Shown piece by piece: positions 2,343-9,508 of a stretch of 18,404 nt of DNA. How positions within the stretch are numbered: position 1 is the first letter of the stretch; the number at the start of each line of letters is the position of its first letter. Made by a program: the position numbers and the translations under genes. This DNA is from Candidatus Altimarinota bacterium (GTDB lineage: Bacteria; Patescibacteriota; Gracilibacteria; CAIRYL01): the NCBI GenBank assembly GCA_027053135.1, contig JALUEA010000020.1:1-18404 (forward strand), written 5' to 3'. The notes beneath the pieces were generated by a model, which was not told the DNA's origin, searched no databases, and worked only from the letters and a program-made list of their open reading frames with translations.

Positions 2343-3155
2343 CTAAAAATGTTTTTTTACTGCATCAAAATTATCTATCCATGGAAAATGTCCAGCATTT
2401 GGAATAATACATAATTCAATTTTTGGATACATTTTCTGTATGTTTTGTGCATACGATACTGGAGTTACCATATCGTTTTCTCCCCAAATACATTTCATAT
2501 TTGATTCATACGGTTTTAGTACTTCGAGATATGCAGAAATATCTTCATTTACAATATTTTGAAATGTTTTTTTCATTATTTCTCCATCTAACACACTATA
2601 ATCAGAATTGGTATTATGAAAAAAAACTCTATAAAAAGAAGAAATAATACGCTTTATAAAACGCGTATATTTCTTTTTTTCTAAAAATTGAGACACTCTG
2701 AGTTGTGTTTTTTGGAATAGCGTAAGTGTTCTATAAAACGGAACTCCCATACAAATAATACTTTGTATATTATATGAAATTGTTTCCTTACAATTTTCTA
2801 AATACTTCAACAACACTCGTCCTCCGAAACTATGTACCACAAACTCTACAGATGGTAGATTCGTATTAGTACTCTTCTTTTTTTCTTGTATAACTTTTTC
2901 TATAAAATCTTTTAAAAATACAGCATAATCATGTAAAGTAAACACTTTCTCAAGAGATACACTTTTCCCAAATGCGGGGAAATCAAGAGCTATACTCTTG
3001 TTTCGTAACGAAAAAAATGAAAGAAAAGATTCTTTATTACTTCCCCATCCATGTAAAAAGAGTGTTATTGTTTCATTCCTCTTCTCTTCTCCCACCTCAT
3101 AATACGAAATTCTTCTTCCTTGTATCATTACCTGTTTTTCCTTTATTTTTTTCAT
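2343..3155 (-). CDS. Alpha/beta-hydrolase fold protein
   Basis: 270 residues. The oxyanion-hole motif HGWG is at 35-38, the nucleophile elbow is VHSFGG with Ser109, the acid is Asp228 in WGENDMVTP, and the base is His256 in NAGHFPW. The full Ser-Asp-His triad of a BioH/lipase/haloperoxidase-type hydrolase is therefore present. The lid region (about 140-210) is rich in Lys, Phe and Tyr and gives no substrate clue. There is no signal peptide, so the protein is probably cytoplasmic. It converges with rseP, with 19 bases between stop codons and no clear terminator, and diverges from dnaB. It ends in TAG. The substrate (ester, lactone or lipid) cannot be told from sequence; carboxylesterase or acylglycerol lipase are the usual names for such proteins. 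Confidence 0.85.
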   Translation of the reverse strand: MKKIKEKQVMIQGRRISYYEVGEEKRNETITLFLHGWGSNKESFLSFFSLRNKSIALDFPAFGKSVSLEKVFTLHDYAVFLKDFIEKVIQEKKKSTNTNLPSVEFVVHSFGGRVLLKYLENCKETISYNIQSIICMGVPFYRTLTLFQKTQLRVSQFLEKKKYTRFIKRIISSFYRVFFHNTNSDYSVLDGEIMKKTFQNIVNEDISAYLEVLKPYESNMKCIWGENDMVTPVSYAQNIQKMYPKIELCIIPNAGHFPWIDNFDAVKKHF

Positions 3156-3231
3156 ATATTATTAAAAACTATCGAATACTAGAATAAAATTTTTACATAA
3201 TATTTTCTAGAGGAAAATAACCAAATCATAT

Positions 3232-3258
3232 ATTATACAAACGATCTTTTATTATACA
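3232..3258 (-). promoter_or_regulatory. Repeated -10-like elements between hydrolase and dnaB
   Basis: The 9-base word TATTATACA occurs twice on the plus strand (3231-3239 and 3250-3258), 19 bases apart. On the minus strand each copy reads TG followed directly by TATAAT, a perfect -10 hexamer. The copy at 3237-3232 lies 77 bases before the hydrolase start and could be its promoter. No convincing -35 is seen. The dnaB promoter, which must also lie in 3156-3264, could not be assigned. Confidence 0.35.
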
Positions 3259-3264
3259 GTACTC

Positions 3265-4611
3265 ATGACTATCACCCATAAAATTCCTCCACACTCACTT
3301 GATGCAGAACATTCTGTATTAGGAGCGTTATTAGTAGATCCAAATGCTCTTATGAAAATTTCTGATTTTCTACAAGTGGATGATTTTTATTCACAAGGAA
3401 ACAAAGATATTTATGAAACTATTTTACATTTATCAAATCTCCGAAAACCAATAGATTTAATTACTGTTCCAGAAGAGTTAAAGAAAAAAGACCTCCTTGA
3501 TAATATCGGTGGGGTAAGTTTTTTAGCAGAACTAATGACCATAGTCCCATCTGCTATAAATATTTTAGAATACGCCAATATTGTAAAACAAAAATCCACA
3601 CTCAGAAAAATGGTACATGCTGGACAAAAAATTACTTCATTTGGATATGATGAGGACGAAGATATCGAAAAATTACTGGAACAAAGTGAAAAAGAAGTTT
3701 TTGCTATTTCACAAACATTTTTAAGAAATAAATTTGTACCAATAAATGAAATTTTATCTGGACGATTTGAAATTTTTTCCGAACGCCATGATAACGACGA
3801 TGAAGATTTAGATATTGGAGTAAAATCAGGATTTGATAATTTAGATAAAATACTTGGCGGATTTCAACCTTCTGATTTAATTATATTAGCAGCACGACCT
3901 TCTATGGGGAAAACAGGATTTGCGTTAGCAACTGCAATAAATGCAGCTGATATATACGGGAAATCAATTGGTATCTTCTCTCTTGAAATGTCAAAAGAAC
4001 AACTCGTTGATAGAATGTTTGCCAATGTTTTACAAGTTAATTCATATAAATTACAAAAAGGACAATTATCTGATGATGAATTTATGCGTATGGGGCCAGC
4101 AATGGATAAACTTTCTAAAATGCCTATTTATATTGATGATACCGTTGAATCAAGTATTTCTGCATTACGAGCAAAAGCACGACGACTACAAATGGAACAT
4201 GGATTAGACATGATTATTATTGATTACTTACAATTAATGTCCACAGGCGATCCCAAATTATCTGGAAATCGAGTCTTAGAAATTGCCGAAATTTCTCGGA
4301 GTTTAAAAGCATTAGCCAGAGAACTTCATATTCCTATAATAGCATTATCGCAACTCTCTCGAGGTGTAGAATCTCGAAACGATAAACGCCCAATGCTTTC
4401 AGACTTACGAGATTCAGGTGCTATTGAACAAGATGCTGATGTTGCTATCATGTTATATAGAGATGAATACTATAATAAGGATACAGATAAACCTGGTGAA
4501 ACAGAACTCTTAATTCGAAAACATCGAAATGGTGAAATAGGAGAATGTGTCCTTATATTTGATAAAGCAAAAATGCGATTTCGTGAAAAAAATCCTCAAA
4601 ATGATTATTAA
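3265..4611 (+). CDS. dnaB: Replicative DNA helicase DnaB
   Basis: 448 residues, typical of bacterial DnaB. The N-terminal helical domain starts with the family hallmark PPHSLDAEHSVLGALL and binds primase; a linker around 155-190 is acidic. The RecA-like helicase domain follows, with Walker A ARPSMGKT at 210-217, Walker B ending in IIIDYLQLM (Asp320), and the arginine-finger region near the C-terminus. It works as a hexameric ATPase that unwinds DNA at the fork. No intein or insertion is visible. The start is the ATG at 3265; there is no Shine-Dalgarno site, and the leader contains two copies of TATTATACA. The gene stands alone on the plus strand and ends in TAA six bases before a strong hairpin terminator. 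The Walker A arginine is encoded by CGA, which supports CGA as arginine in this genome. Confidence 0.98.
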   Translation: MTITHKIPPHSLDAEHSVLGALLVDPNALMKISDFLQVDDFYSQGNKDIYETILHLSNLRKPIDLITVPEELKKKDLLDNIGGVSFLAELMTIVPSAINILEYANIVKQKSTLRKMVHAGQKITSFGYDEDEDIEKLLEQSEKEVFAISQTFLRNKFVPINEILSGRFEIFSERHDNDDEDLDIGVKSGFDNLDKILGGFQPSDLIILAARPSMGKTGFALATAINAADIYGKSIGIFSLEMSKEQLVDRMFANVLQVNSYKLQKGQLSDDEFMRMGPAMDKLSKMPIYIDDTVESSISALRAKARRLQMEHGLDMIIIDYLQLMSTGDPKLSGNRVLEIAEISRSLKALARELHIPIIALSQLSRGVESRNDKRPMLSDLRDSGAIEQDADVAIMLYRDEYYNKDTDKPGETELLIRKHRNGEIGECVLIFDKAKMRFREKNPQNDY

Positions 4612-4617
4612 CACACA

Positions 4618-4650
4618 AAAAAACAGATATAAAAAGTATATCTGTTTTTT
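4618..4650. terminator. Bidirectional intrinsic terminator between dnaB and pnp
   Basis: A 14-bp perfect inverted repeat (4618-4631 and 4637-4650) with a 5-base loop. The core CAGATATA is flanked by A-runs on the left and T-runs on the right, so each strand ends in a U-tract after the hairpin. It lies between two convergent genes and probably stops both transcripts. Confidence 0.9.
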
Positions 4651-4678
4651 ATTACACATATTCACATGTTCGTATTAA

Positions 4679-6802
4679 CTAATCTGCATCTTTAATAGAA
4701 AAATTTAATCGTCCCTTATCATCAATATCTATAAGTTTTACCCGAACACTATCCCCTACAGATAATATATCTGAAACATTTTCTACTCGTGTATCTGCAA
4801 CTTTTGATACGTGAACAAGTCCTCCAACCGTCGAAGTAATATCCACAAAAACTCCATAGGATTCTACCCGTGCGACTTTTGCTGTATATGTTTCTCCTAC
4901 TTTTGGTTCAAATGCAAGCATTTTAATAATTTCTACTGTTTTTTCAAGAACTTTTATATTTCCTTCTCCTACAGATGCGACTGTTACCAAACCATCTTCA
5001 CTAATATTAATTTCACATCCACTATCTTCTGTAAGTTTTTGAATAATTTCACCACCTCTTCCAATAACTTTTCCAATAAGATCTGGAGAAATTTGTACCG
5101 TTAAAATTTTCGGAGCATAATGAGATAAATGATCTTCTACTGTTGGAACAACTTTCAACATCTCATTCAAAATATGTTCTCGTCCCTTCTTTGCTTGTGA
5201 TAATGCCTGTTTAAATACCTCTAAATCAATCTTTTTTAACTTAATATCCATTTGAATTGCCGTAATTCCTTTTGTTGTTCCTGTTACCTTAAAATCCATA
5301 TCTCCAACAAAATCTTCATCATCTTGAATATCAGACAAAACTTTATAACACGAACCATCTTCTGCAGTCACTAATCCCATTGCTATCCCTGAAACAGGTC
5401 TTTTAATAGGAACTCCTGCAGCCATCAATGCCATTGTAGAACCACATGTTGCTGCCATAGAAGAAGACCCATTCGACATTAAAATTTCTGAAACAACTCG
5501 AATTGTATACCCAAACTCTTCTTGAGAAGGAATAACAGGACGCAATGCCCTTTCCGCTAATGCTCCGTGTCCAATTTCTCTATTTCCTGTCATTAACCGA
5601 TGCGAACATGATGCAACAGAAAAAGGAGGAAAATTATAATGATGAAAATAATGTCGAACTTCTTCCCCTTCTATTCCTTCAACAACTAATCCCTGTGATG
5701 GAGATGCAAGTGTTACAATAGAAACACATTGTGTTTCTCCTCGTTGAAATAACGCAGATCCATGTGTTCTTTCAAACATATTTTTTTCTCCATGAATAGG
5801 ACGAACTTCATCTAGTTTTCGACCAGCAATTCGATTTTCGTCTTGTAAAATTGCAGTTCGTAAAATATTTTTCCATACTAAATCAGCAACTATTTGAAAC
5901 TGTTCTTCTATTCGATCTTCATCAAATTTCCCAGATTGTAACGCTTTTTCTTTTGCATTCTCAGTAATAGCAGTTTTTTCTGCGACTCTTTGTAACTTTC
6001 CAGGAATTGTTAATAACGCATTTTTGTATGCATCAGAACACTCTTGTCGTATAAATTCTTCTAATTCTGTATCGTGTTGTACATCTTCAAGAAACATTTT
6101 TTCTTGTCCTCTTTCAGATCGAATATCTTCAAAAAATTGACAAATTTTCGCTCCTTCTTTTTGACCGAACTCTATTGCTGACAACATCGTTTCTTCTGAT
6201 ACCTCATTTGCTCCAGCTTCAATCATAACAACTCCATCTTGTGTTGAAGATACAATAAGATCCAAATCTTGTACCTTTCGTTCTTCAAAAGTTGGATTTA
6301 ATACAAAATTTCCCGTTTGTTTATCTATTCCTACTCGAAGCATTGCAATTGGTCCTCCCCAAGGAACATTTGATACATGGAGTGCGACTGAAGCTCCCAG
6401 TGCCGCACAAATATCATGTTCATTTTCCCTATCATATGAAAGAGTTGTAAGCATTACCTGTACATCGTTTCGTAAATGTTTCGGAAACAATGGACGAATT
6501 GAACGATCTATAACTCGAGAAATAAGAATTTTATCATCAGAAGAACGCGTTTCTCTTTTTACAAATCGAGAACTTTTAATCATTCCTGATGCATATAATT
6601 TTTCTTGATAATTTACCATCAACGGAAAATAATCAATATCTCTTTCCGTTTGAGACATAACAACCGTTACTAAAACAGATGTTCCTCCACATGTAACAAC
6701 ACATGACCCATTAGAAAGAGTAGCATATTTCCCAAAATCAAACATATATTCTTTTCCCGCAATTTCTAATGTATAGATTTTATGATTTGAGTAATAACTC
6801 AT
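4679..6802 (-). CDS. pnp: Polyribonucleotide nucleotidyltransferase (PNPase)
   Basis: 707 residues, close to the 711 of E. coli. Order of domains: first RNase PH-like core (about 10-230), helical linker (about 240-315), second RNase PH-like core (about 320-545), KH domain (about 555-615) with GxxG loop GRGG at 581-584, and S1 RNA-binding domain (about 630-703). The segment DDEDFVGDMDF holds Asp495 and Asp501, which align with the essential Asp486 and Asp492 of the E. coli enzyme. It degrades RNA 3' to 5' with phosphate, releasing nucleoside diphosphates. It lies 86 bases after murA on the same strand; the gap holds no clear terminator, so co-transcription is possible. Start ATG at 6802 has no Shine-Dalgarno site. 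Stop is TAG, then the shared terminator. No rpsO, its frequent neighbour, is present. Confidence 0.98.
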   Translation of the reverse strand: MSYYSNHKIYTLEIAGKEYMFDFGKYATLSNGSCVVTCGGTSVLVTVVMSQTERDIDYFPLMVNYQEKLYASGMIKSSRFVKRETRSSDDKILISRVIDRSIRPLFPKHLRNDVQVMLTTLSYDRENEHDICAALGASVALHVSNVPWGGPIAMLRVGIDKQTGNFVLNPTFEERKVQDLDLIVSSTQDGVVMIEAGANEVSEETMLSAIEFGQKEGAKICQFFEDIRSERGQEKMFLEDVQHDTELEEFIRQECSDAYKNALLTIPGKLQRVAEKTAITENAKEKALQSGKFDEDRIEEQFQIVADLVWKNILRTAILQDENRIAGRKLDEVRPIHGEKNMFERTHGSALFQRGETQCVSIVTLASPSQGLVVEGIEGEEVRHYFHHYNFPPFSVASCSHRLMTGNREIGHGALAERALRPVIPSQEEFGYTIRVVSEILMSNGSSSMAATCGSTMALMAAGVPIKRPVSGIAMGLVTAEDGSCYKVLSDIQDDEDFVGDMDFKVTGTTKGITAIQMDIKLKKIDLEVFKQALSQAKKGREHILNEMLKVVPTVEDHLSHYAPKILTVQISPDLIGKVIGRGGEIIQKLTEDSGCEINISEDGLVTVASVGEGNIKVLEKTVEIIKMLAFEPKVGETYTAKVARVESYGVFVDITSTVGGLVHVSKVADTRVENVSDILSVGDSVRVKLIDIDDKGRLNFSIKDAD

Positions 6803-6888: not shown

Positions 6889-8223
6889 TTACGAAATTGT
6901 TTTAATATCTGCCCCTAATTTTCGTAAATTCCCTTCAATATCTTCATATCCTCTATGAATATAATAAATATTGGTAATTTCCGTAACTCCATTTGTAACT
7001 AATGCAGCAAGAATCATGGCAGCTCCCGCTCGAATATCTTGTGATGCCACTGTTGTTCCAATAAATGCAGTAGGCCCCTTTACCTTAAATACGTGAGGAT
7101 TTTGAATTTCTACATCTGCTCCCATTTTTTCTAATTCAAGTAAATATGCAAACTTTCGCTCAAAAAGAGTTTCTTGAATTTTAGAAACACCTTCACATTG
7201 TGTCAGCAACACTGCAAATTGTGGATGTAAATCCGTTGCAAATTTAGGAAATACCCCTGTCTGAATATCTACTGCACGTAATTTTTCATGTGGATTTGAA
7301 AGATCCCTCTTAATGGTTTTAATCGTTTTATCGGTTTCTGATACTTCAAATTTTGCACCCGTTTGTCGTAACCGTTCTATAAAAGAATCTAAATGAGAAA
7401 CTTCTACATTTTTTACCGTAATTTCAGAATTTGTTAAAATTCCTGCTAATACATATGTTCCTACTTGTAAATAATCTGATGTGACTTCTATTTCTGCCGC
7501 AATATTTTCATTTTTTTCTATTCCTTGTATTTCAAGAGCATGACTTCCTACTCCAGAAATTTTTGCTCCTGCAGATTGTAAAAATGCACATAAATTTTGT
7601 ACATGAGGCTCAGAAGCTGCAAGGCGTAACTGAGAAGCCCCTTTCGCAAATACCATTGCGATTAAAGCATTTTCTGTAGCTGTAACAGAAAGCTCAGGCA
7701 TAACAAATTGTGTCCCAACAAACCCTTTTCGACTCCCTTTCTCGTCCTCTTGTAACTCTAACTCTATATGTGTTTCTGATTCTATAATCTTTGCACCTAA
7801 CGCTTCAAATACACTCAAATGAACATCAACAGATCGTTTCCCTAACACACATCCTCCTGGAAATGGAATACGAACTCTTCCAAATCGTACTAAAAGAGGA
7901 GCTAAAAACATTATACTCGAACGCATTTTTCCTATATAACTCCCCGAAACATTTCCATTTCCTGTAAGATTTCTTGCATCAATAGTAAAGTTTCTTTTAT
8001 TCTCTTTATCTTGTTCTATTTTTGCACCAATAGATTTCATAATTTCCATAAATCCACGCGTATCAGATAAATCAGGAATATTTGTGACACGCGAAATACC
8101 GTTCACTGCAAGTGTTGCTGCCAATATTGGTAATGCAGCATTTTTTGAACCAGGAATTTCTATTGAACCAGATAATTCTTTTCCTCCATGTATATAAAAT
8201 CGCTCATTTAATGGTACTTGCAT
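6889..8223 (-). CDS. murA: UDP-N-acetylglucosamine 1-carboxyvinyltransferase (MurA)
   Basis: 444 residues, somewhat longer than the usual 417-430. It transfers enolpyruvate from PEP to UDP-GlcNAc, the first committed step of peptidoglycan synthesis, in the cytoplasm. Visible marks: the N-terminal substrate loop PGSKNAALPILAATL (Lys27, Asn28), the catalytic loop PFPGGCVLG with Cys125, equivalent to Cys115 of E. coli, and the C-terminal RAGAAMILAALV block of the EPSP-synthase fold. Because the cysteine is kept rather than replaced by Asp, the enzyme is predicted to be fosfomycin-sensitive (family knowledge, not tested). Start ATG at 8223 has ATTAGG just upstream, too close to be a normal ribosome site. 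A terminator separates it from the upstream regulator gene, so it should have its own promoter, perhaps the TATACT at 8257-8252. Ends in TAA. Confidence 0.97.
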   Translation of the reverse strand: MQVPLNERFYIHGGKELSGSIEIPGSKNAALPILAATLAVNGISRVTNIPDLSDTRGFMEIMKSIGAKIEQDKENKRNFTIDARNLTGNGNVSGSYIGKMRSSIMFLAPLLVRFGRVRIPFPGGCVLGKRSVDVHLSVFEALGAKIIESETHIELELQEDEKGSRKGFVGTQFVMPELSVTATENALIAMVFAKGASQLRLAASEPHVQNLCAFLQSAGAKISGVGSHALEIQGIEKNENIAAEIEVTSDYLQVGTYVLAGILTNSEITVKNVEVSHLDSFIERLRQTGAKFEVSETDKTIKTIKRDLSNPHEKLRAVDIQTGVFPKFATDLHPQFAVLLTQCEGVSKIQETLFERKFAYLLELEKMGADVEIQNPHVFKVKGPTAFIGTTVASQDIRAGAAMILAALVTNGVTEITNIYYIHRGYEDIEGNLRKLGADIKTIS

Positions 8224-8251
8224 CCTAATATTGAAATAGTCTATTACAAGA

Positions 8252-8257
8252 AGTATA
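8252..8257 (-). promoter_or_regulatory. Possible -10 of the murA promoter
   Basis: TATACT on the minus strand, 28 bases before the murA start codon and downstream of the terminator at 8286-8321. The upstream sequence is a T-rich run without a clear -35, so the call rests on the hexamer and the need for a promoter in this gap. Confidence 0.3.
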
Positions 8258-8285
8258 TAAAAATTTACAAAAAAACAAAATATAA

Positions 8286-8321
8286 AAAAATAAGTTATAC
8301 CGTATAATATAACTTATTTTT
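8286..8321 (-). terminator. Intrinsic terminator after the sigma-region-4 gene
   Basis: A 14-bp perfect inverted repeat (8286-8299 and 8308-8321, core TAAGTTATA) with an 8-base loop. On the minus strand it ends in seven T, 33 bases after the stop of the gene at 8354-9508. The other strand also ends in a T-run, but no plus-strand gene reads into it. Confidence 0.88.
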
Positions 8322-8353
8322 CCGTACCATATAACACCACTTATACAAAAACA

Positions 8354-9508
8354 TTATTTTTTTTCTTTCCCTTTTAAATATGCTCTTCCTCGTCCTCCTT
8401 CTGGTTCTTCCCATTTAGATTCATCAAAATCATAAACAGCACGCCCAACTCGAACAAATGCCGGTGATTTTTGAAGATTTAAAGAAATAGTATTTTCTTT
8501 TACATCTCGTAATTTTTCTACTTCTTCAATAATTTCTCTTCGTTTTAATGGACCTTTTTCCTTTAACACTTTTGCGATAATATCCATTACTGTTCCTGCT
8601 GGAATCCCCCATTCACTTAATGCATATACTCCTCGCCCAACAAGAACAAAATCCTTATATCGAATTAAATCATTATGTACCGCTTGCACTGTTACATGTT
8701 TTTGTGTCTTTCCAAACTCAGAGATTTTATTTGCCAACTCAATAAAATGAAGTGGTTTCTTTTCTTTTTGAAAAATTAAAATTGCCTTATCTTTAATACT
8801 TTTTGGGTTAATATGTCTCCATTTTGAAAGACCAATACGACCTTCGTCAACAACAAGAATATCTATTGCAGCTTTTGCAATACTTTCCATCGTAAGCTTC
8901 CCAACCTCTATAGAATCTTTAATATCTTTATAAATTGCTGCAAAAGACATCACATCTTTATTTTCTTGTAACCGTTTTCGTACTGCTTTATACGTTTTCG
9001 TAATTTGTGAAAACGGAATCGCAGTAAAATGATAAATTGGAGCAAAATACTTATCTCTTCGTACTTCAGAAATCTCTTTATCTAATCGAATAACAAATCG
9101 AATAACATTTGCCGTATAGGAACTATCACTATTTAAAGCAATCAATGCTTTTGAAACAAGCGTATCAGAATCTAAAACCCCTCCATATTCTTGGAGAATA
9201 CTACGTGTAACATCAGTAATATTTCTAATATGAGAATTCATTACATTCCGTTGCAATTTTTTTAAAGCATTATTTTCTATTTGTCGAATTCGTTCCCGTG
9301 TTACATCAAAATGCTGACCTATTTTTTCTAATGTTTGTTTTGGTTGATCATCTAAAGAAAATCGTTTTGTAATAACTTGCTTCTCTGTTTGAGACAAAAT
9401 AAGAAAAAAATCTTTAATGAGTCCCTGTAACTTTTCCTCTGAAGCTTCAAAGTGTTTCACAACTGTAGACATAAACCTAATATAATAAAAAAACACAAAC
9501 GATTCCAT
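8354..9508 (-). CDS. Sigma-70 region 4 protein fused to tandem winged helices (HARE-HTH)
   Basis: 384 residues from the first ATG. ATG13 (base 9472) is the more likely start, because the first 12 residues (Phe/Tyr-rich) look unlike the rest and the upstream bases ATTAGG resemble those before murA. Residues about 36-88 are a textbook sigma region 4: LSQTEKQVITKRFSL then TLEKIGQHFDVTRERIRQIE, including the -35-recognition helix. There is no region 2 or 3, so it cannot melt a promoter alone. Next come winged-helix-like segments (about 90-150 and 180-230). A HARE-HTH domain (about 232-302) follows, with PLHFIELANKI and VGRGVYALSEWG, as in the RNA polymerase delta subunit. Another winged helix (about 308-372) holds VRVGRAVYDFD. 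The Lys/Gly-rich tail is disordered. It is probably an RNA polymerase-associated transcription regulator in the cytoplasm; the exact role is unknown. It is a single-gene unit with its own terminator. Confidence 0.82.
   Translation of the reverse strand: MESFVFFYYIRFMSTVVKHFEASEEKLQGLIKDFFLILSQTEKQVITKRFSLDDQPKQTLEKIGQHFDVTRERIRQIENNALKKLQRNVMNSHIRNITDVTRSILQEYGGVLDSDTLVSKALIALNSDSSYTANVIRFVIRLDKEISEVRRDKYFAPIYHFTAIPFSQITKTYKAVRKRLQENKDVMSFAAIYKDIKDSIEVGKLTMESIAKAAIDILVVDEGRIGLSKWRHINPKSIKDKAILIFQKEKKPLHFIELANKISEFGKTQKHVTVQAVHNDLIRYKDFVLVGRGVYALSEWGIPAGTVMDIIAKVLKEKGPLKRREIIEEVEKLRDVKENTISLNLQKSPAFVRVGRAVYDFDESKWEEPEGGRGRAYLKGKEKK

Follow-up and report, generated by a model that had tools for sequence, protein, structure and literature searches.

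The described proteins closest to the one treated here come from the transcription machinery. RpoD and other sigma-70 factors have region 4 in common with it, in sequence and in fold. The delta subunit of RNA polymerase (RpoE), with which it shares a HARE-HTH domain, has an acidic C-terminal tail and, to our knowledge, no sigma region 4. In addition, laboratory-made chimeras (7kug, 7kuf, 8d5v, 8cyf and 6ido) combine region 4 with a real flap-tip helix of the polymerase beta subunit. Here we analyse a gene in an 18,404-nucleotide stretch of a Candidatus Altimarinota bacterium (contig JALUEA010000020.1, the whole stretch hereafter called the window), whose product joins sigma region 4 (sigma4) to HARE-type winged helices in one chain and is referred to as sigma4-HARE. 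Automatically annotated patescibacterial entries of about 335-430 residues, 26-100% identical to the window protein, belong to the same family and show Sigma70_r4 and HARE-HTH together; they are labels only ('sigma factor-like helix-turn-helix DNA-binding protein', 'DNA-directed RNA polymerase delta subunit' or 'hypothetical protein'), with no function, winged-helix count or flap-site observation attached. Our literature search found no paper describing sigma4-HARE proteins, and the founding paper on HARE-HTH (PMC3272235) may mention fusions with sigma or alpha-CTD.

The open reading frame (ORF) runs from its ATG start to the stop codon without internal stops, encoding 384 amino acids. Pfam recognizes Sigma70_r4 at residues 38-86 (52.2 bits, cut-off 24.1) and, in C-terminal position, HARE-HTH at residues 237-300 (35.3 bits, cut-off 25.9), and NCBIfam matches of the RpoD region 4 type fall within residues 21-100. 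The five Pfam families matched at E <= 1 do not include sigma regions 1.2, 2 or 3, and alpha-CTD gives no Pfam match to the window protein at the same threshold. Both Sigma70_r4 and HARE-HTH are matched in 27 of 27 diverse family members (Pfam, E <= 0.01). A previous sequence-only reading had described an intact region 4 with its -35 helix, the lack of the domains that read the -10 element, and a chain of winged helices including a true HARE-HTH; each of these is borne out by the scans and by the model described below. Its gene coordinates are also right, and its proposed start at ATG13 may hold as well, given that residues 1-20 are modelled with low confidence.

The AlphaFold2 model of the window protein, computed from an alignment of 73 sequences, consists of a four-helix sigma4 and four tandem winged helices (predicted local distance difference test, pLDDT, 93.3; predicted template modelling score, pTM, 0.84). 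The same layout is modelled for P0264, a Nomurabacteria member 28% identical to the window protein (pLDDT 92.7, pTM 0.78), and four tandem winged helices after sigma4 are hence a predicted feature of the family, modelled in two members. The region 4 fold, whose absence from a predicted structure would have spoken against the sequence-only reading, is present in both. In structure alignments, sigma4 is 36-42% identical to full-length primary sigma chains over about 73-83 residues.

In both models, judging from the aligned counts and ranges of the structure alignments, the flap-tip helix of the artificial chimeras would fall on helix 3 of winged helix 1 (residues 130-142), and all chimera residues superpose on the model of P0264. 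The polymerase-docking groove of sigma4 therefore looks occupied internally by winged helix 1. The likeness to the chimeras lies in the helix at the flap-tip position of sigma4; in sigma4-HARE, however, that helix would belong to a winged-helix domain instead of a beta flap. Comparison by eye of helix 130-142 with the organism's own RpoB flap (LTPEEQLLQSIFGEK) gave no clear likeness to a flap-tip motif, so the proposed mimicry is a claim about structure and not about sequence. A test for two hydrophobic faces was weak, because the pattern recurs in part in winged helices 2 and 4. The structural neighbours of the winged-helix tail are uninformative: sigma4 fills the lists, and UFL1-DDRGK1, SelB and RNA polymerase III subunits appear at root-mean-square deviations above 11. 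A viral structure library gave only weak, partial matches.

We tentatively suggest, rating it at somewhat less than an even chance, that sigma4-HARE is an RNA-polymerase-independent reader of -35 elements that serves as a promoter regulator rather than as a sigma factor. Region 4 would read a -35-like element, while winged helix 1 would pack on sigma4 at the site usually taken by the beta flap-tip helix; with the groove filled in this way, sigma4 would retain the shape needed for DNA binding even in the absence of polymerase. Winged helices 3 and 4, which are HARE-type and strongly conserved, may supply contacts to DNA or to a partner beside the -35 site. A protein placed in this manner at -35 elements would be a competitor of RpoD at selected promoters and serve as a repressor or local regulator, one possible target being its own operon with a TraD-like DNA-translocating ATPase. 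Of the roles considered in the sequence-only reading, the competitor or nucleoid-type regulator is favoured and a co-sigma docked on the beta flap becomes less likely, because the flap site is apparently covered in both models. A wider version, which we regard as a possibility held with clearly more reserve, is that a flap-tip-mimicking winged helix has freed sigma4 from polymerase in many Patescibacteria, making it a general promoter-occupancy regulator and a natural counterpart of the crystallography chimeras.

Residue conservation is consistent with DNA reading. Among 65 representatives of 262 members, R49, T59, L60, I63, G64, T70, R71, E72, R73, R75 and Q76 are invariant, and T70, R71, E72, R73, R75 and Q76 are also invariant in the alignment of 27 diverse members. 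The family set comprised 240 proteins fetched by homology, all matching the regular expression used, and 22 locus proteins chosen by a similar expression, with L010 yielding no ORF. We compared it with 63 RpoD proteins bearing a region-2-like motif, reduced to 33 representatives; their loci were found with patterns including TRER[IV]RQIE, and the RpoD column is consequently biased at that stretch. Position 51 is G in all 33 RpoD representatives and S, A or G in the sigma4-HARE family, whereas position 62 (E, 0.94 in RpoD) and position 80 (K, 0.91 in RpoD) are mixed in the family, and the RpoD-conserved HPSRS stretch at 87-91, after the recognition helix, is altered. These invariant and altered sets, with the recognition-face residues presumed to correspond to the contact residues of E. 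coli, suggest that the recognition face of sigma4 has been preserved and parts of its other faces have not. The pattern indicates that sigma4 is under selection for DNA reading.

Table 1. Features of the sigma4-HARE gene and its 3' flank (window coordinates).
Feature	Position	Strand	Basis and remarks
sigma4-HARE gene	8354..9508	minus	384 codons + stop; ATG at 9508; alternative ATG at 9472 = codon 13
Sigma-70 region 4 domain, residues 24-91	9236..9439	minus	Pfam, PDB sequence matches to RpoD region 4, AlphaFold2 model
-35 recognition helix TRERIRQIE, residues 70-78	9275..9301	minus	residue invariance in alignments
Winged helix 1, residues 95-161	9026..9226	minus	secondary structure of the model
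Third helix of winged helix 1, residues 130-142	9083..9121	minus	structure alignments; inferred to coincide with the flap-tip helix of the chimeras
Winged helix 2, residues 166-227	8828..9013	minus	model
Winged helix 3 = Pfam HARE-HTH, residues 238-297	8618..8797	minus	Pfam, alignment, model; family signature HN[DE]LI...FVLVGRG.YAL
Winged helix 4, residues 307-361	8426..8590	minus	alignment, model; signature TI.LNLQ...F.RVGRAVY
Possible terminator, A+T-rich inverted repeat with T runs	8286..8321		between the sigma4-HARE and murA-like genes; by eye, not called by scan

The own genome (642,107 bases, 76% complete) contains three region-4 proteins, which were assigned from their translations as a 451-residue RpoD-like sigma, a 204-residue ECF-type sigma and sigma4-HARE. 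Region 2 occurs in this assembly only in the first two, both on other contigs, and no region 2 gene lies on the sigma4-HARE contig, either adjacent or elsewhere. The neighbours of sigma4-HARE are an RND transporter gene and a gene of the EPSP synthase family that resembles murA. The open frame, the same architecture in relatives, the full RpoD elsewhere and the region 2-free contig rule out a split or frameshifted sigma, the outcome that the sequence-only reading had named as fatal to its interpretation; sigma4-HARE is not a split sigma factor. The suggestion that promoters nearby have weak -35 boxes and extended -10 elements was not supported: the window holds 83 promoter-like sites against a shuffle mean of 89.1 (sd 10.5), that is, no signal above shuffles. 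The window contains no tRNA and no Rfam RNA at gathering threshold.

The search for the same architecture in Patescibacteria revealed a real and widespread family. Among 60 genomes sampled from the own genus through to the own class, 56 have full-length matches. The protein is present in each of the 50 that are at least 90% complete; the four with an RpoD match only (G002, G004, G033, G058) are 71-88% complete. Across the phylum, a profile of the tail alone (residues 226-362, chosen to exclude RpoD matches) is positive in 163 of 286 genomes, two of them more weakly (G170, 8e-24; G204, 1e-17), and leaves 123 without a match; the own class is positive in 26 of 26. The same tail is absent from all 35 genomes found by way of RpoD matches, of which the majority, though not every one, are non-patescibacterial. 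Named members belong to Gracili-, Peregrini-, Peri-, Parcu-, Buchanan-, Niyogi-, Doudna-, Kaiser- and Nomurabacteria, and tail fragments in databases bear Saccharibacteria names.

Two further observations concern individual genomes. A second, diverged copy of the family is seen in nine of the 26 class genomes (G010, G022, G031, G040, G055, G224, G244, G263, G329), sometimes less than 10 kb from the first, as in L066 with copies at 3505-4596 and 7947-9038. In eight relatives (G019, G021, G028, G039, G046, G047, G053, G054) the match reads through 5 to 22 TGA codons with the family retained, as would be expected for lineages with reassigned UGA.

The presence of the gene in all 50 near-complete genomes sampled would fit a core transcription factor, and it bears on a different explanation, namely that sigma4-HARE is an accessory factor bound to polymerase. 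In such a protein sigma4 would exchange its internal helix for the beta flap and HARE would bind the core like delta, tuning initiation or replacing sigma4 after promoter escape. The sigma4 core and its hydrophobic positions are preserved, and the NCBIfam delta model TIGR04567 also matches residues 237-300 (33.3 bits); together with the distribution, these points favour such an accessory factor. However, that score lies below the cut-off of 42, the sequence ends without a delta-like acidic tail, the flap site is apparently filled in two models, and the tail is unmatched in a substantial part of the phylum. We consider the accessory factor unlikely, although it deserves serious attention.

The gene order is highly regular outside the own class, where a membrane protein is encoded directly downstream on the same strand in 98 of 102 comparable genomes, with a gap of 5-604 bases from the tail match. 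The comparison was made from printed rows (117 genomes with a tail row, 150 with a membrane-protein row, 102 with both) at a gap limit of 900. The next gene, or the second half of a fused product, encodes a TraD/VirD4-like ATPase, with coupling-protein domains above cut-off in 5 of 5 scanned examples; the stand-alone membrane partner has no Pfam match in 2 of 2 scanned. This order raises the possibility that sigma4-HARE serves the chromosomal TraD/VirD4-like system: it would bind particular DNA and act either as an adaptor, delivering that DNA to the ATPase encoded alongside, or as a dedicated regulator of the operon. The presence of two type IV secretion system (T4SS) pilin genes within the window would agree with it. 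On the other hand, the membrane partner, paired or fused with the ATPase, occurs in 283 of the 286 genomes of the phylum, far beyond the tail, and so works without sigma4-HARE. The gene is also not adjacent to the ATPase in the window and in seven likely own-class loci (L064-L066, L069, L144-L146).

Loci without sigma4-HARE bear on the same question. Twenty were fetched from tail-negative genomes, of which 11 were readable upstream of the partner and nine had frames cut by the fetched stretch. In 10 of the 11, the nearest ORF upstream of the partner on its strand is secF-like; in the eleventh (L173) the two genes are separated by a further two ORFs that lack a Pfam match. Twelve of 35 loci also have a secD-secF pair upstream of sigma4-HARE; the pair was confirmed by Pfam in L158 and in L168, a locus without sigma4-HARE, and otherwise assigned by clustering. 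Since the secF-like gene lies next to the partner where sigma4-HARE is missing, the latter belongs to an old chromosomal cluster and is lost or gained as a single gene. The link to the ATPase operon is thus very regular outside the own class and not obligatory, and the conserved order may reflect inheritance instead of function. We regard a role as DNA adaptor or dedicated regulator of this system as rather improbable. The two adjacent T4SS pilin genes, at 54-518 and 524-970 on the minus strand, lie about 7 kb from the sigma4-HARE gene and score 27.7 and 33.5 bits with Pfam T4SS_pilin (cut-off 26.6). In L168, the secD-like gene at 3137-4885 carries an inserted PPIase (rotamase) domain.

The architecture extends beyond Patescibacteria, and in our sample it is common only in that phylum. 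Tail matches occur in 9 of 201 genomes of the Chloroflexota phylum, that of G331 (Anaerolineae, Chloroflexi record), with E values from 6e-4 to 1e-23. Six of these nine relatives were fetched and three scanned (L271, L272, L274): L271 encodes a sigma4-HARE protein in a 345-residue frame, while L272 and L274, and hence two of the three, combine alpha-CTD and sigma4 with a HARE stretch in a single protein, HARE being under cut-off in L274. The latter two resemble the window protein in that sigma4 is followed by HARE-type winged helices and region 2 was not found, but differ from it by their N-terminal alpha-CTD/HhH domains, the window protein being without alpha-CTD. L272, L274 and, by eye only, L273 are large proteins with alpha-CTD/HhH, sigma4 and HARE-type winged helices, in which promoter-reading parts of polymerase appear in a single stand-alone chain.

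On an Abditibacteriota plasmid (L269, AP024153.1), a 568-residue protein annotated as rpoD aligns with the family over 325 columns (hhalign 99.8%). After it come an Eco57I/DrmMI-like methylase and a DUF4007 protein, giving the locus a defence-like look. A 466-residue relative with sigma4 and winged helices on an IMG/VR contig (L257, 4812-6212) aligns over 310 columns (hhalign 99.1%). For both, Pfam sees sigma4 and gives no HARE match at E <= 0.01, so that their C-terminal likeness depends on the profile alignment. The L257 relative adjoins a 744-residue ORF that has an intein-like look by eye.

The methylase beside the plasmid relative would fit a sensor of modified DNA, in which HARE domains would recognize bases that are methylated or carry other modifications, with sigma4 directing these domains to promoters, as in defence-linked HARE proteins. 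Reading of modified bases by HARE-HTH is a proposal reported in PMC11037411. Nevertheless, no methylase was seen by eye among the neighbour clusters common to at least three of 35 loci, rarer neighbours not having been examined, and the PADLOC match of the window protein is limited to the sigma4 stretch of MzaA, the sigma-like protein of the MZA defence system; the NCBIfam model of that protein, NF041931, gives 66.1 bits against a whole-protein cut-off of 800, also over the sigma4 stretch only. This explanation seems to us very improbable.

A mobile or viral origin was also considered and rejected, as the viral, phage and plasmid matches are nearly all partial. Among the best 80 of 243 related stretches in the viral collection, 79 match only inside residues 9-118 and L257 alone matches residues 45-370. 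Phage records gave 27 matches, none covering more than 80% of the query, and plasmids gave 79, with one above this coverage; the plasmid match H2 (Alkaliphilus) turned out to be ordinary sigma factors.

The regular link to a TraD/VirD4-like ATPase touches the secretion or transfer system of Patescibacteria; according to PMC10633639, an apparent T4SS without a recognizable coupling protein is essential in one Saccharibacterium. If winged helix 1 does mimic the flap and hold sigma4 for polymerase-free reading of -35 elements, the protein would represent a new route from a polymerase part to a regulator, and would offer a direct test of the part that the beta flap plays in -35 reading. Patescibacteria are regarded as poor in transcription regulators. 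With its occurrence in every near-complete genome up to the own class and in more than half of the genomes of the phylum, sigma4-HARE would be among their main DNA-reading factors.
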